21,767 nucleotides of DNA, taken from Saccoglossus kowalevskii. Taxonomy: Eukaryota > Hemichordata > Enteropneusta > Harrimaniidae. The position numbers were made by a program, and so were the translations under genes. Below, one piece after another: positions 1-21,767 of this stretch. The notes under the pieces are model-generated. The model did not search any database and was not told where the DNA came from. It saw only the letters and a list, made by a program, of their open reading frames with translations. The number at the start of each line of letters is the position of its first letter. The first letter of the stretch is position 1. The stretch is from positions 160,201 through 181,967 of the forward strand of contig NW_003134839.1 in the NCBI RefSeq assembly GCF_000003605.2. Direction: 5' to 3'.

Positions 1-63
1 ACACTTGCGGCCATGGATACGGACAGCATCATCATCATCGGATTCATCTAGTGATAGAGATAT
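1..63 (-). CDS. GDA-like exon 7, cut by the window edge (residues 234-254)
   Basis: After a TTTCAG acceptor the frame reads ISLSLDESDDDDAVRIHGRK and one more residue. It aligns with the SHISENRDEVEAV region of guanine deaminase, but the zinc-ligand His and catalytic Glu are absent. The exon continues past position 1. Confidence 0.75.
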   Translation of the reverse strand, partial: MSLSLDESDDDDAVRIHGRKC

Positions 64-3000
64 CTGAAATCAATCACAATGCATGATGGGTACATACCAG
101 TTTAATTTGCGGGAGAAAAATTTTCTGTGAATGTCAGTAAAAATCATGAAAAGCAGTTGAAAATCTAATCAACTTTTGTGATTTTTTTTGTTTTGAGAAT
201 GCTATAAAAATCCTCAAATCAAAAATTAAGTGCTTTATAGAACGTTGACAAATTTCCTGTAATTTTCTAATATGTTACAGCTTCTCCATTGGCCAGAATA
301 ATATCCAATAGAAACACTTGTTACATACCTGCATGGAAATCTCGTTTATTCGCATAGAATCATACAATCCATTCATCAATTCTGGTGTGACAGTGGTCAG
401 CGCTGAGGGCGATATAATCGGTGTAATCAAGGGAGACTTTTTTTGTTTGACGTCATAGAGAAACCTTGAAAGAACAAATAAACTGTTAGGATGTACCAGT
501 TAAAGGGCGGTAGTCGTTGTGCCGCGTCCTGTTCGATATGGGACTCATAGCGACGTATACAACGCGTGTAAAATACATAATAGTAGTTTATAAATAAATA
601 AACGCTGCTCGGACTGATAAATATGATATATAGAAGATAATATTTGGTAATCGTAATCCTAAATAACTATTAAAATCTGCGTGACTGCCAACGCGCTTTA
701 AACACTTCATTGGAACGCACATCGAAAAATTAAATTACAGAAAAATAATGTATTTATAAAACATAAAACAACCTAAACATTTAATTAAAAAGGGATTGAA
801 ACATTCCTCTGAACAAAGTGAAGAGAATACAGTTGCACATGTTTTTACCTCTCCCTCAGTATCCAATCGTCAACCCCTAAATATATCACTTAGAGTAGGT
901 TTCTCTGCAGTGAATCAAGTCTACAGAAAGGCGTTTATAATGGTTTTTAGTTGACAGCTGACACCACTTTAATGTGTCTTTGCATGTCGGACTGAATGTC
1001 GGTACAAGGTACAATGTTGTATAAATAATGCTGTGACAGATATTTTATTTAGATTTAGGGGTCGGTTTGAAATCATAAGGGTTGCCATACGATTTGTTAA
1101 AACAAAAAGTACAAGCTAGAAACAGAGGGAAAACAAATTGCACGCTAGGAAAAAATGTTGGCATATTGAAGAAAAAAAGAAGTAAAAATAAACTGATCAT
1201 ATTCGTCAAGTCACACTCCCGTGACATCAAATGGTCGACCCTTAAATACAGTCTCCATCAAACCAGGCTTCTAACTAACAGCGCCCTCTTCTGATCGTCA
1301 GTGTCAATGGACGTATTTCTAGACGATACAGAGATGTGTTGTTTTGTTTAATTTTAATTGCAGCTAATAATTCTACATAATTAGGAGTAAGTTACTTTCA
1401 TCATTTTATATTATTATTTACAAACCTGACCATGATTGAGATGAACGTCATCTAGTCTACACTATTCGACCAGGAATTTCCAGAGGGGTCAGCCATATTA
1501 AACACAACAGCCGTTATTTGTCGGTCGTTGCCCTCCATGAAAAATTTGAATAATTTATTTCTTTTTCGTTTTTTTTTTTTATTTAATCGCACATTTAGGG
1601 AATATTTACAATATATAACTGCGTAAAACACTGTCAATAAATAAATATACAGAACAAACAGGTGAACAGAAGTGAAAACAATATTTTGAAAACGTATTTT
1701 TATATATATCGGGTTATCCAAAATTAAGAAACCGTTACCAGTTGTTTGTTGCTCTCGTTACATATTCAGACGGACGAAACCATTTCAGTTAACCGTCTTT
1801 GTCTCGGGGTAGGTGCTCGTTCTATGATCGTATAGTGAGAATGGGTCTGCTGACAACGAGAACAACACCTAACGCACCGCCCCTGCAATGCAGTGGGTAT
1901 GGGTGCAATTTGTGGAACCCCCATTACAGAGAAAATGAAAATGTCAGATTTTGATTATACCCTACATAAAGTTTCTACCCTACTGTGGTTAACCTACCAG
2001 TTCAAATATTATTACGCTTTGTATTCATACAAGAGACATATCGCCTTTAAATAATTGAATCCGTATTTTCAATGAACCCATAGGCCTAAATAAATTAAAT
2101 ACTTTTACAAGTTTTACTATCTATTGTTGACCAAAAGGTAGCCCAATTCTCTCATATATGGTCAGAAGAGAAGTGGCAGTACATGTGTATGAAGAGTATG
2201 TTTCACCCACTTTCGCTGTGCAATAGCTAGCGTCACCATGGGCTACTCTATGCCCGACACTGTCGGGGGTCGCGTGAATTACGCCCTCGGTGGCGGCTGT
2301 ACAGTGTATTGGGCAGTTGGCCGTCGGCTAGGCAAAACCTACGTGACCAGGCCCATTTTGCCACCAAATGTCAAATTTACGTGTTTTACTTACTGTCGGG
2401 TTGCCTTCAATGATTCGTTGGTCAGCTCCATGTAAGCATCGTATCCAACTTCGCCACGAATCGTATCGCGATTGCATTTACCAATAAACGCACGCTGGCC
2501 AACCTTGTCTTTGAAAAGATGACACACAATGTATTAAATTGTGATTACGTCTTAAACAATGTTGTAATACAATGCAAAAACACAATCAGTATTTGTTGCT
2601 ATGAACTAAACAAAATACTCAAAGAGCACTAATTATGAAACAATTTTATTGGGGAAATTGTACTAGTAATTATAATAATGTAATAAACTTTATTGATATC
2701 GTATCCTTTATAGGATCTTGAGTTAAATTACAAATAAAATAAAATAATAATATAATAATGATGATAATAACAGATATGTCTCGATATTAATATTGTGATT
2801 TATTTGGATGGCATTACAGCGTTTACATTACAAGTTTCTATGAATCGCGCCCTCTAGTGCCGAAGTGCGTCTATGATGCAATATATGACATGGAAGTCGT
2901 TCAAAGCGTAAATTCTGTTTTTATTTGTAGTCATTCATCCTTGAAGATTACGTATTTAAGAGATTTACCAATATTCTAGATGACGAACATCTACATAACA

Positions 3001-6000
3001 CATAGCTTCGATTTAAACGAAATTGCCTTCACTTTTGACATCGCAGAGCGCTGTCACTAGAGGGCGCGACTTGTAGGAATGTTGTATTGTTGGAGCCAAA
3101 TTGTTCATTCAATTAGTTCATTCAAACACACTAAATCTCTGGGTCCCTGGCTCAAACATATACAGATTTGGAAGCGGTGTGTTATCATTATGGCATATTG
3201 AAGAAACTTTATTTACCGTGAACGGAAAAGAAAAGTTCATTACAATTATTATCGTTTGTTTGTAGCCGCGAATTCGTCTAAGGTTTTTAATTTTTCTTGA
3301 AAGAAAAATGGTGAATAATTTTAAGACCCAAATCAAACTCACCAACAATATCCCATAGCTCGATTGCCGCCTCGGCATGTATACCGCTTCGGTAACAGGC
3401 TGTGGTGATGCCGTTCTTCACGTTCCGATCCTAAAACGTGCAAACAGTCGTGTGAGGGCGTTTCTGATATACAGTAAATACAGCAATCTAATATGAATAT
3501 CGCCACCACACGGCAAAACATAATAAATATTCAATTGTGAAAAATAGATAATTCGTACATACCACTGCTTTTGTGAAAACTTTTTTGGCGAATTTCGGAT
3601 CGTGATACCTAGTTTCTAAGGGCCAGCAACGTGACTTGACAACATCCCAGTACGGCAAGGCCACGGACGTACCGGACAGTGGATACAGCATCACGTTATT
3701 ATGGACGTCCACTAAACCAGGCATCATAAACTGACTGAAATGAAACTAACATAATATCAACATATTGCGCGCACTCGTATGTAGGGTTCGTGGACGTCGT
3801 CAGATCCGCCATCTTGTTCATCCTCGTTCGCGGCTTGCCGTATTATAATAACTAAAACAGCCACTCTCCCATATATGTATCTATTACACAGCTTCTTAAC
3901 AGGTATTTTCACAACATTCAGAAAACAAAAGCGGTTGTTTGGGATAACTTAGAGCGAACATGTTTCAAGCACTAGTTACCACCAAACTGCGCATAAAACA
4001 GTTTTAGAGATTTGCTAAATAAACAAAAAAACAGATTTACGCTCAAGCTTATAAACTTGAACAAATGTGAAAACTATGCATCACCCTTCATGTGCATGAC
4101 TAAAATGGAATTTAACGAGAATCTTAACGATTTGCTTTATAGCGCCCTCGTCGACAAAAAAATCTCTTACCCTTCTGTCATCTGCTGTACATGCTTTGAA
4201 TGGAGTCCATATTTTTTCAATAATTCTTTCAAACGGTCTTTTGGTTGGAAGAATAAAATCTGATTTATAAAAGGAATAAAATTGTTAATATGAAAAGAAC
4301 AAATCGTGAAACGTTTGGGAGATTTAATAAAATTTTCATACAAGTATTATTATGACCACAAACCCGTTCTTTTTTTTTTGTTTCAAGTTTTTTTTTTATT
4401 TTTTAAAAATAAATATTTATAAATTTCAATTGCAATTTATTCAATTAACCAAATAAAGAGCACAGTTCGCAAAGACGCCATAACTTTAGCGGATGGATAT
4501 TTCTCTAAGTTTAACATGTAATGTGTGAGCTGATTCACTCACATAAATAAGCCATGTCACGTGGGCATCCATGAAATATTTGAAAATGTTCAAATCCTAT
4601 TTTATCGGTCAATAGAAACCTTTATTTTCAGTTTGAATACAAAATTTATAAATATTTAGAAAAGAAGAACAAACAAACAAGAGTACGGGTTCGTAGCTGT
4701 GATAGTAAACACATCTACTTTATGAGTTTGGTATGACTAGGTGGAAGGTATTCTCGATCTGGTAAACTAATATTGATTATACTGGCAGCACAACAAACCC
4801 TCGTCTATGCCACGGATATTTATGCCCCTCAATTTCAGGATCGCGATGGGAGTGCACCGAGGCCAAGGCGAGGTTAATATCCAAATAATATCGTTTAATT
4901 ACTAATAGTTCTTTCCAACGTGATAACACAATGTTCATTTGGAAAGTTCTCTCCCATAATGCAATTGACGCATGCTCAGCAGTGAACATTTGAATTCAGG
5001 AGTAATGACCAGAGGAGAATGTAGTAGCGAGCGTTTCCCAGATCTGAACTATACGTATTTATCAGAGACCGATATTTGTTATCACACTTGCATATGCTGG
5101 TTGGCAAATATATGTAAACATATGACGTCACAGTGCATTGGTTCCATCCGTCACAAACGCCTGGTATTCGTATGTAAATCACGTCGTTATTTAAACTGCG
5201 CAAATAAGCTGCAATACGTGTCAACATGAATAATCATATATATAGGACATTTTAATAACTACAATAACAGTGTTCAGAGCAAATTTTCCGCGGTTACGAT
5301 TTTCACAAAAACAAATACTAGTACTGCGGCTAAAATTAAATGGACCGTATCAGTGCTACGAACGGATCCCAGGAATGTGAATATTCTAAACGGTCGGGTG
5401 GCCCATGAAGGGAACACACAATGCGATAAGGGTGTTACGTAATAATGCAAGCAGATATTCACACATCGATGGCAGCTCTAATAAATCACGTCAAGTCTCC
5501 TAAAGCGGACTATATTTGAAATAGTTTTCAATTTACAGCATATCACAGAAGGTCTTGCGTTCTGATTTCGTGCTTGCTTGATTTTGTTAAATAACCCCCT
5601 CACCCACCCAAGCAGAATTATTGGTTCTGCCCTTATTACATTCATACTTCAATGGTAAGCACACGTAGTTATACAAAACTAACAACGGTATATTACATCG
5701 TGCTAGCCGCGTTCATTCCATGATGTGATCTCAATCGACCGCGCATTTTTGCAAATGAATCGTACTATCATAAAAATATAACTTTTAAGTATAGTTAACA
5801 GAGAAATTGAACCAAAACGACGATAAACACGCACTGAAGCAAGTAGTAGTGTTGACAAATGCTGCAAAGAGGCGAACACGTAATTGCATTCATTGATAGC
5901 AACGCAGCACACGGCTGTTACGCCAATGAAGCGACACCCTGCCATAACGTACCTTGCCATCTTTAACGCCCAGGGCGTAGTCCGTCACTACATCCATCGG

Positions 6001-6051
6001 TTTATCGTCCGTGGCATGGACAAAGTTACCACAATACACATGGGAGGACAT
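1..6051 (-). CDS. Guanine deaminase-family protein (GDA-like), probable pseudoenzyme; 5' seven coding exons, 3' part off the window
   Basis: Seven exons joined by GT-AG introns give an open frame of 254 residues: 5953-6051, 4171-4259, 3563-3734, 3343-3430, 2394-2508, 329-464 and 1-63. The protein follows guanine deaminase (amidohydrolase superfamily, guanine to xanthine) from its start: GNFVHAT near residue 8, FMMPGLVD at 65-72, KNGITTACY near 125, DKVGQRAFIGK at 150-160. By eye alignment to the human enzyme, key positions differ. The DTHIHASQ region reads DVHNNVML, so one HxH zinc histidine is Asn76 and the guanine-contacting Gln is Leu79. The PRFS loop reads SPSA, losing its Arg. The SHISE motif reads ISLSL, losing another zinc His and the catalytic Glu. 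Frame and splice sites are intact, so this looks like a maintained paralog rather than a decayed copy. ATG at 6051 was chosen because it gives the family N-terminus. The C-terminal half is not visible. Confidence 0.9.
329..464 (-). CDS. GDA-like exon 6 (residues 188-233)
   Basis: Encodes FLYDVKQKKSPLITPIISPS, then ALTTVTPELMNGLYDSMRIN and EISMQ. Matches the family PIVTPRFSLSC region, but the Arg that contacts the purine in known structures is Ser208 here. Acceptor TTTCAAG, donor GTATGT. A perfect CRE-like TGACGTCA lies at 448-455, inside the coding sequence. Confidence 0.88.
465..2393. other. GDA-like intron 5: AT-rich, with one MITE and a GC-rich block
   Basis: Holds the TTAA-flanked MITE at 500-702. 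A GC-rich block at about 2215-2345 has an open frame on the plus strand, but no splice signals or recognised protein support it. The rest is AT-rich with short T-runs and shows no coding signal. Confidence 0.6.
500..702 (+). mobile_element. MITE family C, copy 1 (long, diverged)
   Basis: Starts TTAAAGGGCGGTAGTCG and ends AACGCGCTTTAA. It shares the internal block TCGATATGGGACTCATAGCG and the following CGACGTATACAACGCG with copies at 7596 and 9267. TTAA at both ends points to piggyBac-like insertion. The 3' half is longer than in the other copies and unrelated to them, so this copy is rearranged. Confidence 0.75.
2394..2508 (-). CDS. GDA-like exon 5 (residues 150-188)
   Basis: Encodes DKVGQRAFIGKCNRDT, a clear guanine deaminase block, then YMELTNESLKATRQ. 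Acceptor TTCAAAG, donor GTAAGT. The segment after GK is shorter and more divergent than in the family. Confidence 0.92.
2730..2775. repeat. AT-rich simple repeat
   Basis: Imperfect AATAAA/ATAATAATG/ATGATAATA low-complexity run in GDA-like intron 4. Confidence 0.7.
2847..2859 (-). promoter_or_regulatory. CTCF-like motif, minus orientation
   Basis: GCGCCCTCTAGTG is the reverse complement of CACTAGAGGGCGC, close to the bilaterian CTCF core. It lies in the intron between GDA-like exons 5 and 4, facing the next motif. Confidence 0.35.
3055..3067 (+). promoter_or_regulatory. CTCF-like motif, plus orientation
   Basis: CACTAGAGGGCGC is identical in its 13-base core to the reverse complement of the site at 2847-2859, 208 bases away and inverted. 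It may be a CTCF site, or the pair may be the ends of a short inverted-repeat element. Confidence 0.35.
3343..3430 (-). CDS. GDA-like exon 4 (residues 121-149 and split Asp150)
   Basis: Encodes DRNVKNGITTACYRSGIHAE and then AAIELWDIV. The KNGxTTACY block is highly characteristic of guanine deaminase. Acceptor TTTTAG, donor GTGAGT. Confidence 0.92.
3563..3734 (-). CDS. GDA-like exon 3 with altered metal-binding motif (residues 63-120)
   Basis: Encodes QFMMPGLVDVHNNVMLYPL through KVFTKAV. The amidohydrolase HxH motif should follow the VD pair; only the first His remains and the second is Asn. Of two tandem acceptors (TTTCAG and the CAG four bases later), only the first keeps the frame with exon 2. 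Donor GTATGT. Confidence 0.92.
4171..4259 (-). CDS. GDA-like exon 2 (residues 34-62 and split Gly63)
   Basis: A short exon encoding ILFFQPKDRL through HVQQMTEG. It matches the family segment between the N-terminal strands and the FMPGLVD motif. Acceptor AAATCAG, donor GTAAGAG. It ends with two bases of a Gly codon, which fixes the next acceptor. Confidence 0.85.
4793..4876. repeat. Short GC-rich repeat with small inverted ends
   Basis: Begins AACCCTCGTCTATGCC and ends GGCGAGGTT, so its ends are inverted copies around AACC-CTCG. It is GC-rich against AT-rich flanks. Probably a small dispersed element; there is no second copy in the window. Confidence 0.35.
5123..5130. promoter_or_regulatory. 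CRE palindrome TGACGTCA
   Basis: Perfect CREB/ATF full site in GDA-like intron 1. Occupancy cannot be judged from sequence. Confidence 0.35.
5953..6051 (-). CDS. GDA-like exon 1 (residues 1-33)
   Basis: Begins MSSHVYCGNFVHATDD and ends ALGVKDGK before a GTACGT donor, phase 0. The family N-terminal strands are recognisable. Untranslated exons could lie further upstream (higher coordinates) and would not be visible by coding signal. Confidence 0.85.
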
Positions 6052-7595: not shown

Positions 7596-7724
7596 TTAAA
7601 GGGCGGCAGTCGTCGCGCCGCGTCCTGTTCGATATGGGACTCATAGCGACGTATACAACGCGTGCAAAATATTTTATTTACATGAAATTCGAACACGCGC
7701 TGCGCGACGACCACCGCGCTTTAA
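7596..7724 (+). mobile_element. MITE family C, copy 2 (best preserved)
   Basis: 129 bases from TTAA to TTAA. The left end TTAAAGGGCGGCAGTCGTCG and the reverse complement of the right end, TTAAAGCGCGGTGGTCGTCG, form terminal inverted repeats. It is CpG-rich, has no coding capacity, and has inserted into a decayed tandem array. Probably moved by a piggyBac-type transposase. Confidence 0.85.
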
Positions 7725-9170: not shown

Positions 9171-9266
9171 TTGTATTGGAGTTTCGGTAGGTTTCTGTAT
9201 GTAAATTAGGGGAAATTAAAATGACTTGTTACCAGTAGCATAATACTGGGTAATCCTCATTGAGGC

Positions 9267-9392
9267 TTAAAGGGCGCCGCGCCGCGTCCTGTTCGATATA
9301 GGACTCATAGCGACGTATACAACGCGTGTAAAATACATTGTTTATTTACATGAAATTCGATCACGCGCTGCGCAACGACCACCGCCTTTTAA
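9267..9392 (+). mobile_element. MITE family C, copy 3
   Basis: 126 bases, TTAA at both ends, same orientation as the copy at 7596. It shares CCGCGTCCTGTTCGATA, CGACGTATACAACGCG and TTTACATGAAATTCGA. A few bases are missing just inside the left end. Confidence 0.85.
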
Positions 9393-10204: not shown

Positions 10205-10600
10205 ATACAATGACCAAATATGGACAAAAGTGTAGTAAAGATGTGAGGCAATGACCAAATATGGACAATGGTATACTGTAAAATGACTAATTTTCATTTA
10301 AATTTCACTGATTTGCCATTTCAGGCATATTCAGTGGGTTTTAAAATCACGGTTTTATCATTTAGATAATGTGTTCTATGCTAAATTTTACATATTCATT
10401 GGGTTTTAATTTAGTGCATTTTCCAGTCAGCGAAATAAGCCAAATTAAAACCCAGTGAATAATTAAGCCCTTTACAGTAGTAATTATGTAATTTAATGCC
10501 CAAATATGGATGGTATAGTAATACCCAAATATGGACAAAGGTAAAGTAATGATGTGATGAAATGCCTAAATATTAATGATGGTATATTAATGATATAATG
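10205..10600 (+). repeat. Degenerate 41-base minisatellite interrupted by a MITE
   Basis: Monomers carry CCAAATATGGACAA with AGTAATGATGTGATG-like spacers. Two units precede the MITE at 10274-10479 and about three decayed units follow it, so the array is older than the insertion. Confidence 0.6.
10274..10479 (+). mobile_element. MITE family B, copy 1
   Basis: About 206 bases. Begins TACTGTAAAATGACTAATTT and ends AATTAAGCCCTTTACAGTA. Contains CAGGCATATTCAGTGGGTTT and an internal AAACCCAGTGAATAATT that is its inverted partner. Ends in TA on both sides, consistent with TA-target insertion. Confidence 0.8.
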
Positions 10601-11044: not shown

Positions 11045-11251
11045 TACTGTAAAATACTTTATTTTCGCTTGGGATTAATTTCTGCTATTTTTGCTGAAGG
11101 AATGATTCAGTGAAAATCAAGCAAACGAATATATCTTGTTTCCTATATTTTACATTCAACTTTTCAGAAATCAGTGAAAATAAAATACAAAACACCGAAA
11201 AGGTCTTTTCAGCGAAAATTTATTTCCAGCTGAAATAAAGTATTTACAGTA
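11045..11251 (+). mobile_element. MITE family A, copy 1
   Basis: 207 bases. Left end TACTGTAAAATACTTTATTT; right end AATAAAGTATTTACAGTA is its inverted copy. Inside are GATTCAGTGAAAAT and ACAAAACACC blocks shared with the copies at 15982 and 19005. The first ten bases are the same as in family B. Confidence 0.85.
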
Positions 11252-12564: not shown

Positions 12565-12775
12565 TACTGTAAAATGACTAATTTTCGCTGGATTTAAATT
12601 TTGCTGATTTACCATTTCAGGCATATTCAATGGGTTTTAAATTCACGGTTTTATCATTTAGATAATGTGTTCTATGCTAAATTTTACATATTCACTGGGT
12701 TTTAATTTAGCACATTTCCCAGTCAGTGAAATAAGCAAAATTAAAACCCAGTGAATAATTAACCCCTTTACAGTA
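12565..12775 (+). mobile_element. MITE family B, copy 2
   Basis: Same orientation as, and nearly the same sequence as, the copy at 10274: starts TACTGTAAAATGACTAATTT, shares TTATCATTTAGATAATGTGT, ends CCCCTTTACAGTA. High similarity suggests a recent burst. Confidence 0.85.
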
Positions 12776-13076
12776 TTATTTTTTTACCAAGCAAAATTTT
12801 GCAATATTCAATTACATGCTTGCCATAAAAAAACATCGGTGCAAATTCTTAAAACTTAATAACCAGGTTCCTTCACTCCATTTTGGTCATCCTTTCTCTG
12901 AACTGAATACGATGACATCGCATTTTTATTTCGAAAACTTCTTCCTAGTAACAGGACAACCCATAAATGTAAAAATAAAGTGAAACTATTTTTCACATTC
13001 AAGTAGCAATCTACTCTAACCTTTCATAACCAGACGTCCTTGTCCAAATTTTTGTCCACATTTTTCTTATATTCTT

Positions 13077-13374: not shown

Positions 13375-13469
13375 TCACCTATCCTTTCTGGATTTCCTCG
13401 TTGGTGGCGATCTCATCGATGGGGGCACAAAGTTGTCAAGTAGTTCAGTTTCCTCTCGTATTTTCAACT
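13375..13469 (-). CDS. LYRM7: LYRM7 exon 5 with stop codon
   Basis: Encodes ELKIREETELLDNFVPPSMR then SPPTRKSRKDR and TGA at 13377-13375. Acceptor ATCCGCAG. Confidence 0.88.
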
Positions 13470-16400
13470 CTGCGGATAGAAACGTAAATGTTTACTCAAA
13501 TTATCTCACAGGTTTATGTAAATTTTGAGTGAGTGAATCATGAGAGACAACGACAACAAAGAGAAACATTTTAAAAAGTCCTTAACTTAGAAATTATCAA
13601 ACTTGACATGTAGATTAGTGTCCTTTTTCACCTCCAGACTTTCTCACCTAAATTTTGCAATCAATATTTCTGGAAATGAACCCCAATTTTGAAGCAATTT
13701 GGACAAAATTTGAGTCAAATTTCAGTTTTCACCCAAACAATTTTGCTATTTTTGTCCCAGTCTTCTGAAGGGAATTGCAGACTATAAATGGGACTGTTTT
13801 GTGGATTTGTGTGAAGAAAACTGGTGTTTTCTTCCTAGATTTGGCATGCTGACTACTGCGCCCTCTAACAGGACTGATTTTGTAGGAATCCTGAGTCAGG
13901 GTGAAATTCCCCAAATCAAATTTAGTATGCTAATTGACTGCTGGGAAGATAGGTAACTTGAGGAGGCACAAACTACTGTGAATATACTTTATTTTAGCTG
14001 GAATTAATTTTCGCTGAAAAAAAAAAAAAAACTTTATTTTTGATGAGGCCAGACGTTTTTTATTCCCTGTTTCGCGAGTTTTTATAAGGCAATTATTTTG
14101 AGGAGGGCGAGAAAAAAATAAAATTAATTCTTTTTTTCCATTAGATTTGTGTGATTCTCAAAGAATTGTAAGTGAGATCATTGATCGGAGAGAAGAAATG
14201 AAATAAAATTTTATTCCATGTATAACCTTGTTTCTTATCTGTGCTAGACCTCGGTACTTTGATCATGATACTCCCACGGAAATGCAACTTGGATTTGTGT
14301 GTGGTATGTGGCGGGTGGTAAAACAATGAAGATAAAAATAATATTTTTTTAGCATTTTTTTGCGCCTACAAGTCGGCGGGCGTGAGAAATTACGCAGAAA
14401 TAAAATTAAATTTCTATTTCACTTTCGGCTCCTGTTCATTCGGCGGGTTCGCGAAACAAAGGATAATAAAAGTCTCGCCTGAGTTGAATGTAAAAGATGG
14501 ATTTTATTTCATCCCTTCAGCAACATGTTTTTACTCCTGATTTCCTTTGTTTTTACTCCTTTGTTTATGAAATGAATTACATTTTTCCAAATTCCATAAC
14601 TATGGAAAGATGATTTTCAAGATTGCTAATTAATGTATTATTTTTCTGTTGTGTCAATGATTCACCAGTAAACCAGAAACTAATAGTGCCATTGTGCATC
14701 CTTGACCCGTCATGTTATAGAGGGCACATTGTTGTTGACATCTTTGCTACCAGAAGTGGCACGAGAGTCGTGACTGACACAAGCTGATTCACTCCCCAAC
14801 CCTAATACCTAACAGTCAGGCCAATCAGAGAGAAGCTTGATTGTTGACAGTTTCTTTCTATAAGGCTACTTGAAAGATTGTGCCTGATTGGCTACTCAAC
14901 CCTAATACCTAACAGTTGAACCAATCAGAGTGCAGCTTGTTTGTTGACAGTTTCTTTCTATAAGGCTACTTGAAAGATTGTGCCTGATTGGCTACTCAAC
15001 CCTAATACCTAACAGTTGAACCAATCAGAGTGCAGCTTGTTTGTTGACAGTTTCTTTCTATAAGGCTACTTGAAAGATTGTGCCTGATTGGCTACTCAAC
15101 TCTAATACCTAACAGTTGAACCAATCAGAGTGCAGCTTGTTTGTTGGCAGGATTTGTATATGCTTGTTTAATCAAACAAATATGGTCCCCGTATGGAACT
15201 CACCATAATTGCCTTTATCATTCAGGACAGCTTGTATGACCGTTTTCCTCAGCAGAGTCTCAGTATCTTTCGCCAACTTTAACAACTGAAAAAAAAGAAA
15301 TTTGAAAACTGAAGATGAGACATTAACAAAAAAAGTTTCCCCAAAACACAATTATTTTATTCGCTCAGCCACATCAAGTCAAAGTGTGCATAATACTGTG
15401 AGCTTCTTTAATTTCATGAGACAAATTTTCAGAGTGAATATCACAACAATTTGTAATAGTAAAAATTATGCAGTTCACAGTAATTATGCTGCCATTGTAA
15501 ATGTACACATGGCAATAATAGATGTACCGGTAAATAACGGTACATCATGAAACAGTAAATTACTTACTCCTTGTATTTTCTCTGCGTCAGTTTCTTTTTT
15601 ATTTTTCTGAAATTCATCATTTATCCTTGATCTACAAACTAGATAAAACATTGAAAGTGAAAACAAAAATTAACCTGTCAAAATTAACTTGTCAAATTTC
15701 AAAAATTTATGTTAAATATACCGGTCAAGTCTTTGATAAAGCCCATTTCTTATTTCAAGACCAAACAAATGCAAATATTGAGTGTGAATGAAATCGTCGG
15801 GCCAAACCGAAGAAGTGGTTGTTGTCATTTTATTTTATTTGGACAAATCTAAAAACAAAACTGAATGTTGGTAACCAGGGTAACTAGCAAATAAATCCAC
15901 TTCCACAAAGTAGAAATACCTGGGTAAGCCCTCCATTCTCACATGGAAACCGACTGATGACGCTAAAACTTAAAACTCATCTACTGTAAAATACTTTATT
16001 TTCGCTTGGAATTAATTTTTGCTATTTTTGCTGAATGACTGATTCAGTGAAAATAAAATCCAGCGAATATACCTTTTTTCCCGATATTTTACATTAAACT
16101 TGTCAAAAATCAGTGAAAATAAATTCCATACAAAACACCCAAAAAGTCTTTTCAGTGAAAATTAATTCCAGCTAAAATCAAGTATTTTACAGTATTCAGC
16201 TAATTGCACAAACAATTTGTCCATGGTCTATGAAATGCTTAGTTGAACTTACCAGCTAATGCATACTGATCTCCCTTGAACACATCTAACCTGGCTCTGT
16301 GGAGCGACTTAAAACACGCTAGCACCTACAATTATATATAAAATACAAATCTCAAACATGTACAGTACAGACTGTGTGTAACTTAACGTCCAAGCTTGCT

Positions 16401-17189: not shown

Positions 17190-17323
17190 ATGCCGATCAC
17201 AAGAGTGCCAATTGTCCACAAATTTGGGATTATATCCCAGAGCCAACGAGAAGAACTCCAAGAACGGTTGATGAAACAGGCTTTTAAACAAGGCGTCAGT
17301 AGTGATAATCGACGTACAACACG
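17190..17323 (+). CDS. TMEM232: TMEM232 exon 1
   Basis: Starts MPITRVPIVHKFGIISQSQR and ends SSDNRRTT plus two bases of an Arg codon before GTGAGT. Confidence 0.85.
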
Positions 17324-20300
17324 GTGAGTGACAAATACCTGTTTTGTATACACAATACAATGGGTCATTCCAGTTTTTGCCCCCCCCCTCCCCCACCGAT
17401 GGATATTAAGGTTACGACACCTTATGGATTTAAATCCATCATTCAGGTGTCGGATTTTTGTTAACTAACACACCCCCTAGAAACTTGACTGATCTGACGT
17501 ATACGGATGGGTATGTGAACAAATTAAATATATCAAAAATATGACACCTCTCGGAATTAAACCATCCGTAGGGGAGGGGGCACAGGCGCTTGGAACGTTT
17601 CTTGGATAATAAAAAATGACCTAAAGTAGGATCGGCATAAAGTTTAGTTCAGGTCGCCTGTACATTCCCCTACACTCATATAACACAAGGTAGGAAAGCG
17701 TTGACACCATGACATCGAAATTGTCCGAATGCTCGGGTCTCTGCTTCAAAATATCCGCGTAGATGGATTTGTTCTTATTGCTCTGGACTGGTGTTTCGAT
17801 TTTCACAGGATTTAACCAGTTTTAGTTCGAATAAAGGTAATATAAGTCGATCGATAGTTTCTACTGATATCATGCTTGTGTGAAGCGGATCGAAATATAA
17901 TTTGGAAAATCGTGTTATTTTCGGGAAATTGCAATGTCATTGTGTCAAAGCTTTCCTACCTTGTGTTATTACATGAGTAGTAGGGGAATTTACCGGCGAC
18001 TGACTAACTTTATGCCGATCCTACTTTAGGTCATTTTTTATTATCCAAGAAACGTTCTGAGCGCCTGTGGGAGGGGGTGGATGACAACTGGAATGGGCCA
18101 AGGAGACAGACGACTCAAATTGATGATGTTATTGTTACATCTAATAAATACTCGGAACATGATTATCTATCACAGCTAGGCACTCTTCCTCGAAATGGAG
18201 ACTATCTTCCGATATTACTGGGCTTTATTTTGATAAAGTTTCTAATAAATTTCCTAGTTGTAAACAAATTGGGTTAAATATTGGGCGAATATGTCCCAAT
18301 CAAGAGGCTTTATTTTAAACTATTTTCCTCTGCATAAAATAATGTCAACGTAGTACACAACCTTAGAACATGATGTGATATTTTATAATTACTTTCATAG
18401 AAATCCACTAGACATCACCGATGATTTTATCTCCCAGTACAACTCTGCATCAACACATGATGAAAAAAAGAGAGTTGATGACATAGCCACAAAGATGATA
18501 TCAAGATCCAGGGTAAGTAAAACTATAAACCATTGCCCAGTATGGTTCAGGACTGACAAAGTTGACTTGATAATGTAAAAGTCTGGATGACTGATTTTTT
18601 CCACTATGATCACAGGGAGCCCAGGAACTATAATCAACTGTAAGCAATCTCTATGAGCGATTTGGTATCTGCTGGTATCTAGTGTAAGGAATAGACAAGG
18701 GATGAAGGCACCAGTGATCCCATATTTTTTAAACTGGAAAAAACAGCAGAAAAGAATGAAAAATAAAATCTATAAAAAATACTAGCTTGGAGAATATTTG
18801 TTGATCTTTCAAATTTCGCCAAAGCCTTACCTATATTTTACCGATATCTGCAGAATAAATCATGCACGCTCATAGAGACTGCGTACAGTTGATTATAGTT
18901 CCTAGGCTCCCTGTGCTATGATATGGAAAATAATAAAACATAAATTAGAATAAATGAATGAGTAGAAATTGGATACACTTACCTATCTTTATGGTTCCTA
19001 CAGATACTGTAGAATACTTTATTTTCGCTATTTTCGCTGAATGCTTCAGTGAAAATAAAATCCAGCGAATATACTTTTTTTCCTATATTTCACATTTCAA
19101 CTTGTCAAAATTCAGTAAAAATAAATTCCAAACAAAACACCCAAAAAGCCTTTTCGGCGAAAATTAATTCCAGCTAAAATAAAGTATACTACAGAAGACA
19201 GATTACAGCCAAAAACAGTAAAAAATCTAAAAAAAAAATCTAAAAAACAATCTTCCCAGTGAAATTAATGTAAAGTCTAACAATATAATCATACAATCTA
19301 AAAAAAAAAAAATATATTGCTTGAAAACAGAAGTGGTTTATAGTTTATGTTAGCACAGGGCTGTAGCTTAAAGCTAGCTAAATGTTAAATAATTCTCGGA
19401 CCATACTGTGTATATAGCACACAATGCCGGAAAAACAAGCGATTCACTATTATTTTAATTGATTTACTGTTAATTTTACCATAAAAGGTCAGTTTTGTTT
19501 TGCACATACTGTGAAAACAACATAGAGAATGGCAGTGTCTGTAGTGTATCGTTTGAAACTTCACCATTTTCAAATGCTTAGGTTCGGTATTTAATCCACA
19601 TTCTTACTGTGCACACATGTTATATAAAGAGCTACCTTCACAAGTGATGTTTAGTTATTTAACTTGCACTAATTTTTTTGCCAGGAAAAAAAAACATTAG
19701 TGAAAAAAAACATCCTGCTGACTCTTAATAAAAAATCAAATATAAACCTTCGAATAACATCATTTTTATCACCAAAGTTGCATAATTTTATGTAGTTTTC
19801 AAAAATTTCTTATTAATTTACCAATTTACTTATTAGTTTTAAATGAAAATCATTCTTATTTGATAATTTTTGTGATTTGAAAATTATCATTTATGCAGAG
19901 CAAGTTAATGAAGGTTAGTTTTTGGTGAAAATATTTTCTCTATTTATACTTTCCTGTTTCCTATTTATAAATTTCAAGGGCAATTAAATGCAACCAGCCA
20001 ATCAATGAATACAGTTAAATGCAACCAGCCAATCAATGAATACAGTTAAATCCAACCAGCCAATCAATGAATACAGTTAAGTGCAACCAGCCAATCAATG
20101 AATACAGTTAAATCCAACCAGCCAATCAATGAATACAATGACTTTGTGTCATGTTTCAATTTTATCAGCCAATAAAAACCTTGTTTTAGAAGAAATTCAT
20201 ACAATATTTGTTGACTTTGATTTGAATAATTTTTTCTAGAGAAGAGCTGGAATCAAAGATGGTGGTCATGGCAATCATGTTGATTTACCAAGAGCCTGGT

Positions 20301-21313
20301 CTGAGTTATCCATATTGGCACAGTGCCAGGGAAAAGTACAGGAAGGTAATGATTGGTCAACTTTTACAATGACATCACTGAATGCACTCACAGCAGCCTT
20401 CAGAGAAAATGGCTGCCAAGATGTGGAGCAGAAGAGCCACAGACATGTTTTTTCTCTCTCAAATAGTGTTTCATTCTCCCCTATTATTATGCCCAGTGTT
20501 TCAAATACCACGGTTACATAGATCAGGGGAATGGTAGATGTGATAACGGCGGTGAATGGAAGCATATTTGAGAGGCAAGTCTTAGCTCTCTTGCTCAACA
20601 GCCATTTACATATTTTCAGAACTATTATTCATTCACTCCAAAACATCGCTTGACTTTTTAAAAAAAATGTAGCGAATGGAGCAAATATCACGAACAAGCA
20701 TAATTGCCACTTGTTTTATTTCCCCTGAAATAAAACACAGTGGTGTCAACAAAGTTACCATGCTCATTTGTATACTTTCGGAATTTTTATTTAGTCTCTC
20801 CAAAACATTAGTCGAAATTTAAAAAAAAATCGAATCGAATTTGAGCACATATCACAAATGAGCAGAATCACAACACAGGGTACTCTAATCTTTCGCGTAG
20901 AACATTGTGGCGTTAACACAATTAGCATACAACGCATGCACAATGATATGTACAATGTATTTGTATTCAGTGTAGTTTGCCTGTGGCATGGATTGATTAC
21001 AAATCTCTGGCAGTATTCATTCATTTCTACTGATGTCAACCTCAGATACCTAACCTATATCCGGGAATTATATATAATAATAACATAACGCATTTGTAGA
21101 AGCACATGAGTTATGTTACCCTCCATTCATGCTCTCATTTCTGTCATCCTTACAGAGGCCTTAGATATATTGATCACATCGTTAGACCAAGCCCCAGTTA
21201 TCAGAGGTCACATTCCCAGTCTTTTCTTCTTAGCTGAGACGACGCTATACTGGTTGAGAACAGACGCTATGACTCAGCCGTATCTACGGAGTGGAGAAAT
21301 CAAATTACTCAAG
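17190..21313 (+). CDS. TMEM232: TMEM232 (transmembrane protein 232), N-terminal four coding exons; continues off the window
   Basis: Exons 17190-17323, 18401-18512, 20240-20345 and 21156-21313 join in frame to 170 residues. The order of motifs fits TMEM232: MPITRVPIVHKFGIISQ at the start, a charged helical stretch with HDEKKRVDDIATKMISRSR near residues 64-82, and a HGNHVDLPRAWSEL block near 92-105. Then LAQCQGKVQEEALDILITSL and YLRSGEIKLLK, ending at 170. TMEM232 is a poorly understood animal protein linked to sperm flagella in mouse; despite its name, no strong membrane helix is visible in this part. All introns are GT-AG and phases agree at each junction. ATG at 17190 is the first in frame and gives the family start. 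I am sure it is one gene; the family name is from recall of its conserved blocks. Confidence 0.82.
17361..18100. mobile_element. Foldback element of about 740 bases in TMEM232 intron 1, with a nested insert
   Basis: Ends TGGGTCATTCCAGTT (left) and AACTGGAATGGGCCA (right) are inverted. Inner arms at 17581-17712 and 17930-18070 match over about 130 bases, including AAAAAATGACCTAAAGTAGG and its reverse. The loop is about 17720-17925. The left arm is interrupted by an insert of roughly 185 bases (17391-17578). Confidence 0.85.
17391..17578. mobile_element. Nested insert within the left arm of the foldback element
   Basis: Bounded by CCCCACCGATGGAT and ACCATCCGTAGGGGAG, which are inverted copies of each other. 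Contains a hairpin GACACC...GGTGTC around the perfect palindrome ATGGATTTAAATCCAT near 17424-17439. The right arm of the host element lacks it. Confidence 0.6.
18401..18512 (+). CDS. TMEM232: TMEM232 exon 2
   Basis: Acceptor TTTCATAG. Encodes NPLDITDDFISQYNSASTHD then EKKRVDDIATKMISRSR. Donor GTAAGT, phase 0. Confidence 0.85.
18597..18930. mobile_element. MITE with about 60-base inverted ends
   Basis: The left end has ATCACAGGGAGCCCAGGAAC then TATAATCAACTGTA. The right end has TACAGTTGATTATAGTTCCT then AGGCTCCCTGTGCTATGATA. The arms match in reverse over about 60 bases with few changes. The interior has no open frame of note. One copy in the window. Confidence 0.85.
19005..19195 (+). mobile_element. 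MITE family A, copy 3
   Basis: Starts TACTGTAGAATACTTTATTT and ends AATAAAGTATACTACAG. Lacks about 20 bases near the left end that the other copies have. Same orientation as copies 1 and 2. Confidence 0.85.
19984..20138 (+). repeat. 31-base tandem array, five units, each with a CCAAT box
   Basis: Units start at 19984, 20015, 20046, 20077 and 20108 with TTAAATGCAACCAGCCAATC (G/C and A/G variants). Each has one CCAATCA core. A further CAGCCAATAAAA lies just after the array at about 20167. Confidence 0.95.
20240..20345 (+). CDS. TMEM232: TMEM232 exon 3
   Basis: Acceptor TTTTTTCTAG. Encodes RRAGIKDGGHGNHVDLPRAW then SELSILAQCQGKVQE. Donor GTAATG. One base carries into exon 4. Confidence 0.88.
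20346..21155. other. TMEM232 intron 3
   Basis: Contains an old tandem duplication of period 162: CCAAAACAT starts at 20638 and 20800, each followed by an A-run, then GAGCA(A/C)ATATCAC and AGCA(T/G)AAT. No coding signal beyond chance open frames. Confidence 0.55.
20638..20871 (+). repeat. Decayed tandem duplication, period 162
   Basis: Two related segments of about 70 bases at 20638 and 20800 share CCAAAACAT, an A-run, a GAATGGAGCA/GAATTTGAGCA block and ATATCAC. Similarity is partial. Confidence 0.5.
21156..21313 (+). CDS. TMEM232: TMEM232 exon 4
   Basis: Acceptor CCTTACAG. Encodes EALDILITSLDQAPVIRGHI and continues to YLRSGEIKLLK. Donor GTGTGT. This is the most conserved-looking block of the visible protein. 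Confidence 0.9.
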
Positions 21314-21361: not shown

Positions 21362-21767
21362 TACAGTCAAACTTGTGTTAGTGACTATCTTTACCTGAAA
21401 GATCACCTGCCGATATAAAGATCCCCTGCCTATAGTGACCACTGTTGTGCAGGCTCAGTGTAATTTCCATTTGAAGTGACCTGTATACAAAGACCACCTG
21501 TCTATAGTGACCACTTTTGTGCAGGCTCAGTGTAATTTCCATTAAAGTGACCTGCATACAAAAATCACCTGCCTATAGTGACCACTTTTGTGCAGGCTTA
21601 GTGTAATTTACATGTAAAGTGACCTGTATATAAAATGGTGGTTACTATATAGAGGTTTGATTGTATCTTGGGTGGTCACTATACAGAGGTTTGATTGTAC
21701 CTTGGGTGGTCACTATACAGAGGTTTGACTGTACCTTGGGTAGTCGCTATACACAGAATTGACTTTT
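21362..21767. mobile_element. Foldback element with two internal tandem arrays; runs to the window edge
   Basis: The left end TACAGTCAAAC is mirrored by GTTTGACTGTA ending at 21733. The left half repeats TATAGTGACCAC at 21431, 21503 and 21574 (period 71-72). The right half repeats GAGGTTTGATTGTA at 21652, 21686 and 21720 (period 34). GTGGTCACTATA in the right half is the reverse of the left-half motif. Confidence 0.75.

Follow-up and report, generated by a model that had tools for sequence, protein, structure and literature searches.

The question raised by this locus is whether a guanine deaminase (GDA)-like gene of the hemichordate Saccoglossus kowalevskii still encodes an enzyme, is a decaying relic, or encodes a protein kept for some other purpose. 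The gene lies on the minus strand of a 21,767-nucleotide stretch of DNA (contig NW_003134839.1, positions 160,201 to 181,967), which is referred to below as the window and from whose first base coordinates are counted. The reading favoured here, at a probability of about one half, is that the gene encodes a selected pseudoenzyme of GDA descent, which would be retained for a non-catalytic binding role. In the excerpt of PMC10211241, a pseudoenzyme is defined by sequence as a protein from which conserved catalytic motifs are missing, and such motifs are missing from the product predicted here.

The gene was modelled as seven exons running from position 6051 to position 1, where the window edge cuts exon 7; all six introns are GT-AG with fitting phases, and 254 codons are open. 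An earlier note on the same DNA had placed the gene at 1 to 3734, and two further exons move its start to 6051. Exon 1 (5953 to 6051) carries the start codon and the N-terminal segment MSSHVYCGNFVHA...GVKDGK, ends at the donor GTACGT and agrees with human GDA at 15 of 31 aligned residues. Exon 2 (4171 to 4259) fits by its AG and GT borders and by phase; it agrees at 3 of 19 residues in the MAFFT alignment, is ungapped in phmmer and is unreported by the GDA profile. Exon 3 (3563 to 3734; 21 of 57 residues as in human) keeps MPGLVD, and in it HxH has become HNN, the substrate-contacting Gln has become Leu and the pocket Trp has become Val. KNGITTACY is kept in exon 4 (3343 to 3430; 14 of 29), where FATIH reads RSGIH, and DKVGQRAFIGK is kept in exon 5 (2394 to 2508; 16 of 34), where VCMD reads CNRD. 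Exon 6 (329 to 464; 10 of 45) has SPSAL in place of TPRFS, so that Arg is replaced by Ser and Phe by Ala. The GC content at third codon positions of the gene is 50%, against 35.5% for its introns.

Exon 7 (1 to 63) is tentative, agrees with human GDA at 1 of 11 residues and is likewise unreported by the GDA profile. Its acceptor scores 3.8 bits against 6.4 to 12.5 bits for eight other acceptors, a comparison that favours those eight because the small scoring matrix was trained on them. A score at least as high is reached by 139 of the 1062 minus-strand AGs. Of the AGs lying between exon 6 and the edge of the window, four outscore the exon 7 acceptor, and each of these four opens into a stop-containing frame. 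If this exon is right, the strand-5 motif SHxSE reads ISLSL, with His replaced by Ser and Glu by Leu. The change of SHISE to ISLSL proposed in the earlier note can therefore be read in the gene model, but the claim is weak because of the poor acceptor and low identity of exon 7, and loss of HISE is not established. On the 3' side of the gene, 15,830 bases adjoining the window read N, so the C-terminal exons are unreadable; beyond this N-run, a stretch of about 10 kb gave no row better than E = 4.1 that might represent them.

Descent from guanine deaminase was well supported. The 254-residue product matched human GDA (2uz9) over residues 3-246 (E = 2.8e-44); within the part encoded by exons 1-6 the alignment has two small gaps. 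The product scored 45.4 bits against the Pfam family Amidohydro_1 (PF01979; cut-off 25). Against TIGR02967 it scored 101.3 bits, to be read against a cut-off of 375.4 that was set for the full protein, of which the N-terminal half alone was available here. Homology to GDA thus extends over the barrel in its first half. Identity was 36% between the window protein and human GDA (224 positions), 28% between the window protein and yeast GDA (174 positions) and 47% between the human and yeast enzymes (173 positions), so that yeast GDA is closer to the human enzyme than the window protein is. In a 24-row tree, in which the fork of the window, human and yeast proteins is unresolved and long branches are unsure, human GDA was the nearest row by path, and the end branches measured 2.73 for the window protein and 0.11 for human. 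We infer from these comparisons that the gene descends from an animal guanine deaminase, and chance similarity is not an issue.

The residues lost were defined by an alignment of the window protein with 81 other rows, consisting of three solved-GDA fragments and 78 bacterial GDAs. The bacterial rows were found with a GDA alignment as query, which gave one locus in viral contigs (L081) and 80 loci in genome contigs (the best 80 of 571); the window protein as query found no relatives in viral contigs. The 81 loci yielded 79 proteins (L035 and L081 fell below the length limit), and L026 was also left out, giving the 78 used. The frame of L026 is a GDA frame, and all three omitted loci carry DxHxH and TPRF. 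Columns conserved in at least 95% of rows were termed near-invariant, and there were 38 of these. Since the locus scan used two peptide patterns, nine of the 38 are partly conserved through row choice, and since a DxHxH pattern was required when proteins were picked, tests were rerun without the pattern columns and without the DxHxH columns.

The window protein keeps 19 of the 38 near-invariant columns and loses 19; one of those lost is residue 211, at which human GDA also differs from the bacterial enzymes. The second His of the strand-1 zinc motif (HIH to HNN), the Gln (SQY to MLY) and the strand-4 Arg and Phe of TPRF are each present in 81 of 81 other rows and absent from the window protein. 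The Asp and first His of DxHxH are kept, together with several Gly, Pro, Asp, Glu, Thr and Leu residues. The losses weigh more heavily on residues with an assigned role than on the others. With residue 211 excluded, 7 of 8 role residues were lost, compared with 11 of 29 others (p = 0.017); the figures were 6 of 7 and 6 of 21 without the search-pattern columns (p = 0.013), and 5 of 5 and 6 of 20 without the pattern and DxHxH columns (p = 0.009). The roles of the strand-4 Arg-Phe and of some other residues are assumed by us, and the labels H84, Q87 and R213 follow what we take to be the human numbering. The numbering of the alignment runs one higher than these labels and was tied to them through cypin W102, as given in the available text of PMC11694556. 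Roles for a Gln and a Glu are described for a related hydrolase in part of PMC13054789, and these two residues are presumed to be equivalent to the Gln and Glu of GDA. The three replacements pointed out in the earlier note (HxH to HNN, Gln to Leu and the Arg of PRFS to Ser) are all present in the gene model, as is the change of Phe to Ala. The suspicion that catalysis as a zinc deaminase is unlikely is borne out by the loss of both zinc and guanine residues, and the predicted product is very probably not a zinc guanine deaminase.

The position of the changes along the barrel strands was compared by counting matches to human GDA in the six residues before an anchor (strand body) and in the six from the anchor on (catalytic end). 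The anchors and strand limits were chosen after seeing the sequence, and the fixed lengths and a control set of 78 bacterial GDAs were meant to limit the resulting bias. Over five strands, 19 of 30 body positions matched human but only 5 of 30 at the catalytic ends (p = 2.4e-4), a difference of +0.47 that compares with -0.23 to +0.10 in the bacterial enzymes, none of the 78 showing a skew of this size. Without strand 5, which depends on exon 7, the counts were 18 of 24 and 4 of 24 (p = 5.5e-5; bacterial range -0.21 to +0.13). Removal of strand 1 as well left 13 of 18 and 3 of 18 (p = 0.001; +0.56 compared with -0.28 to +0.17), and strands 2 and 4 alone gave 8 of 12 and 2 of 12 (p = 0.018; +0.50 compared with -0.33 to +0.25). 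This makes the loss a directed one: the strand bodies and nearly the full chain length of the first half of the barrel are kept, and the catalytic ends are rewritten.

A different choice of splice sites might in principle restore the motifs, and the GDA profile was therefore run over 1203 segments of at least 12 residues from a six-frame translation of the window. Exons 1, 3, 4, 5 and 6 were recovered at E <= 0.11 and every further row had E >= 5.6; no segment carried HxH or SHxSE. A splice choice returning both HxH and HISE, which would have undone the earlier interpretation, is thus not found in the window. One row in the intron before exon 6 (1044 to 889) matched the same part of the profile as exon 6, at a chance-level E of 5.6 (tblastn over the window, E = 11). 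A doubtful candidate exon can be drawn within it on the minus strand (1030 to 925, bordered by AG and GT and sharing its phases with exon 6), reading LVPTFSPTC (LVPTFSPTCKDTL) where GDAs have VTPRFxPSC. In a test devised after the row had been seen, its score was reached by none of 300 resampled introns in the strand-4 part of the profile and by 12 of 300 anywhere in the profile. This segment might serve as an alternative to exon 6 or be a relic of it, and it would leave the Arg lost; it is a lead that leaves the verdict unchanged. A 76-nucleotide dispersed repeat lies in the same intron just upstream of exon 6 (500-575), with further copies at 7596-7671 and 9260-9335.

Other GDA copies were sought in the animal's own 572 Mb assembly (4830 contigs), from which the best candidates alone were scored. 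Human residues 32-272 matched exon 3 of the window gene at E = 6.8e-5, and no match at another place surpassed it. Neither the window protein nor TIGR02967 nor human residues 32-272 as query uncovered a second GDA in the readable genome, the rows besides the window gene being one at E = 0.53 (window protein) and one at E = 3.62 (human residues). An ordinary animal GDA should outscore an exon of 36% identity, so the readable, scored part presumably holds no second copy. The C-terminal half of human GDA had no match in a search that had no known positive as control. The matches listed for PF01979 were two in number, each on contig C3419, and the window gene was not among them, which means that family searches in this genome are insensitive. 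In a small sample of the genome (nine stretches, of 20 positions asked), 2025 of 4500 bases (45%) read N. Absence of a second GDA was accordingly rejected as proof, and the status of the gene as a paralog, assumed when it was first described, is not established. On contig C3419 (about 135629-141447), where both of the PF01979 matches fall, there is another amidohydrolase gene with a DTHTH motif, which matched the GDA profile weakly (11.4 bits). Uricase had no match in this genome, with the same share of N in the sample, and the PNP family had four.

The open frame was judged against neutral decay by simulations that started from the gene's own codons and assumed 0.1 indels per substitution, a frameshift from four fifths of the indels and an absence of positive selection at the sites. 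If the losses had arisen by neutral decay, stops and frameshifts would be expected in the frame too. When simulation was continued to the point at which 12 of 28 sites were altered, two of 2000 runs had no stop and none was free of both stop and frameshift. Without exon 7 (10 of 26 sites), five of 2000 were stop-free, and without exon 7 and the DxHxH columns (9 of 23 sites) eight of 2000 were; in both cases none was also free of frameshifts. In a separate set of 400 runs, none was stop-free once 19 of 38 sites had been lost. These results support the earlier argument that the intact frame and six introns speak against a dead gene, and we consider it highly likely that the gene is under selection as a protein. 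That it yields an expressed, functional protein lacking the parent activity is suggested indirectly, by the same simulations. A decaying pseudogene whose frame is still open by luck would fit the long branch, the C-terminal exons lying in N and the fact that the gene is known from genomic sequence alone. It is improbable given that no neutral run reached such loss with its frame intact, that the losses are concentrated at the catalytic ends while the strand bodies stay, and that the splice sites of exons 1-6 are undamaged.

The same concentration of changes would be expected if the catalytic ends had been remodelled to bind or turn over a different ligand. Arg has twice taken the place of a near-invariant hydrophobic residue (of Phe in exon 4, and of Met in exon 5, the Met column being covered by a search pattern); these replacements could favour an anionic ligand, and the very long branch is also consistent with a neofunctionalised pocket. 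Of the three zinc positions that the readable half contains, two have been replaced, including one in the tentative exon 7, and this speaks against such a pocket, which is possible but somewhat unlikely. In some members of the amidohydrolase superfamily, NagA among them, HxH is replaced and metal is bound at another place, and the retained Asp and first His of DxHxH would allow a hydrolase with an altered metal site; however, Gln, Arg, Phe and Trp are lost along with the second His, and the new metal site that would be needed is not visible in the sequence, so that a remaining hydrolytic activity of this kind is hardly to be expected. Finally, a partly conserved site could be hidden by misreading of exon 6 or 7, if the SHISE exon lies in the N-run or the alternative exon 6 is the one used. 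The weak acceptor and low identity of exon 7, the 15.8 kb of N that follow and the phase-compatible candidate at 1030-925 would agree with this, but HNN and the Leu for Gln stay in the well-supported exon 3, and the candidate has Thr where Arg is required, which makes a misreading of such consequence very doubtful.

Several points weigh against a selected pseudoenzyme. The case is built on the genomic sequence of one gene, and the readable protein is the first half only; the C-terminal half lies in N, and with it the remaining active-site residues, among them the C-terminal His and Asp, as well as any tail through which a partner might be bound. The gene model is weakest at exon 7, so that loss of the third zinc His and of the Glu is tentative. 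Without this exon the role-residue test becomes borderline, at 5 of 6 compared with 11 of 29 (p = 0.056), at 4 of 5 compared with 6 of 21 without the pattern columns (p = 0.055), and at 3 of 3 compared with 6 of 20 without the pattern and DxHxH columns (p = 0.047). The candidate exon at 1030-925 would restore the Phe, though not the Arg (Thr-Phe), and would leave HNN and the Leu for Gln of exon 3 untouched. The decay argument depends on the number of losses, since 91 of 400 neutral runs were still stop-free at 4 of 38 sites lost. It also presupposes that the losses were not the work of positive selection; had they been, the gene would be functional as well.

If the gene does encode a selected pseudoenzyme, the kept strand bodies suggest that the protein would fold as a GDA-like barrel, in which the rewritten catalytic ends would prevent the zinc site from forming and guanine from being held. 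Selection would keep the protein for a non-catalytic job, and the retained fold would carry a binding role. The product might act as an inactive subunit that dimerises with an active GDA and tunes it, a version that is weakened by the finding of no active GDA partner in the readable genome, or it might be a lone scaffold in the manner of the CRMPs. As a tentative and rather unlikely extension, the gene may be the animal's sole GDA turned non-enzyme, in which case guanine deamination by this family would have been lost and the protein kept for binding. If true, this would be a natural experiment separating the scaffold role of GDA/cypin from catalysis.

The rest of the window contains ordinary animal genes of the TMEM232 and LYR families, both upstream of the GDA-like gene. 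Four exons of TMEM232 were seen on the plus strand (17190-21313; PF15877, 157 bits). The LYR-motif gene, which is perhaps LYRM7-like, is on the minus strand (about 13390-16330; PF05347, 36 bits) and its first exon was not located. Pairs of dispersed repeats, some with inverted ends, occur at 10296-10490 and 12592-12786, at 11045-11120 and 15982-16057, and at 16094-16212 and 19096-19214, and are possible small DNA transposons. Repeat units of 100, 31, 72 and 34 nucleotides make up tandem arrays at 14797-15150, 19984-20137, 21413-21634 and 21637-21753, respectively. On the far side of the N-run, an open frame with leucine-rich repeats was noted on the plus strand (locus L085, 3795-4082), which we presume to resemble CFAP410.

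Among the matches listed in searches of mostly openly accessible literature, there was no paper on a catalytically dead GDA, and the comparison is therefore with more distant systems and with the parent enzyme. Catalytically dead paralogs that activate an enzyme are described in trypanosomes (prozyme and the deoxyhypusine synthase paralog; excerpts of PMC6221367 and PMC3663545). As the window protein is predicted to be, they are inactive family members, there in use, but they have active kin, whereas no active GDA was found beside the window gene in the readable genome. Human GDA/cypin (2uz9, TIGR02967) has in common with the window protein the strand bodies MPGLVD, KNG-TTACY and DK-GQRAF-GK, and differs in possessing the second His of HxH and the Gln, Trp, Arg and Phe of the site, all of which the window protein lacks. 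Cypin is stated to bind tubulin heterodimers in the part of PMC4519774 available. The regulatory or cypin-like role suggested in the earlier note is conjectural for the window gene; a scaffold of that kind would be recognised by binding of tubulin or PSD-95. If the gene has been kept without its catalytic residues, this GDA descendant would indicate that the fold by itself can be worth keeping, and would offer natural material for questions of binding. The nearest precedent appears to be the CRMP family, whose members are, as the window protein is predicted to be, amidohydrolase relatives without the activity, both falling in PF01979; CRMP-4 still has a cavity and two of the six metal residues, according to the accessible portion of PMC4051505. 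The CRMPs derive from dihydropyrimidinase and the window gene from GDA, and the microtubule and signalling role of the CRMPs has no known counterpart here. If the favoured reading is true, the gene would represent another amidohydrolase lineage, beside the CRMPs, that lost its chemistry and yet stayed.

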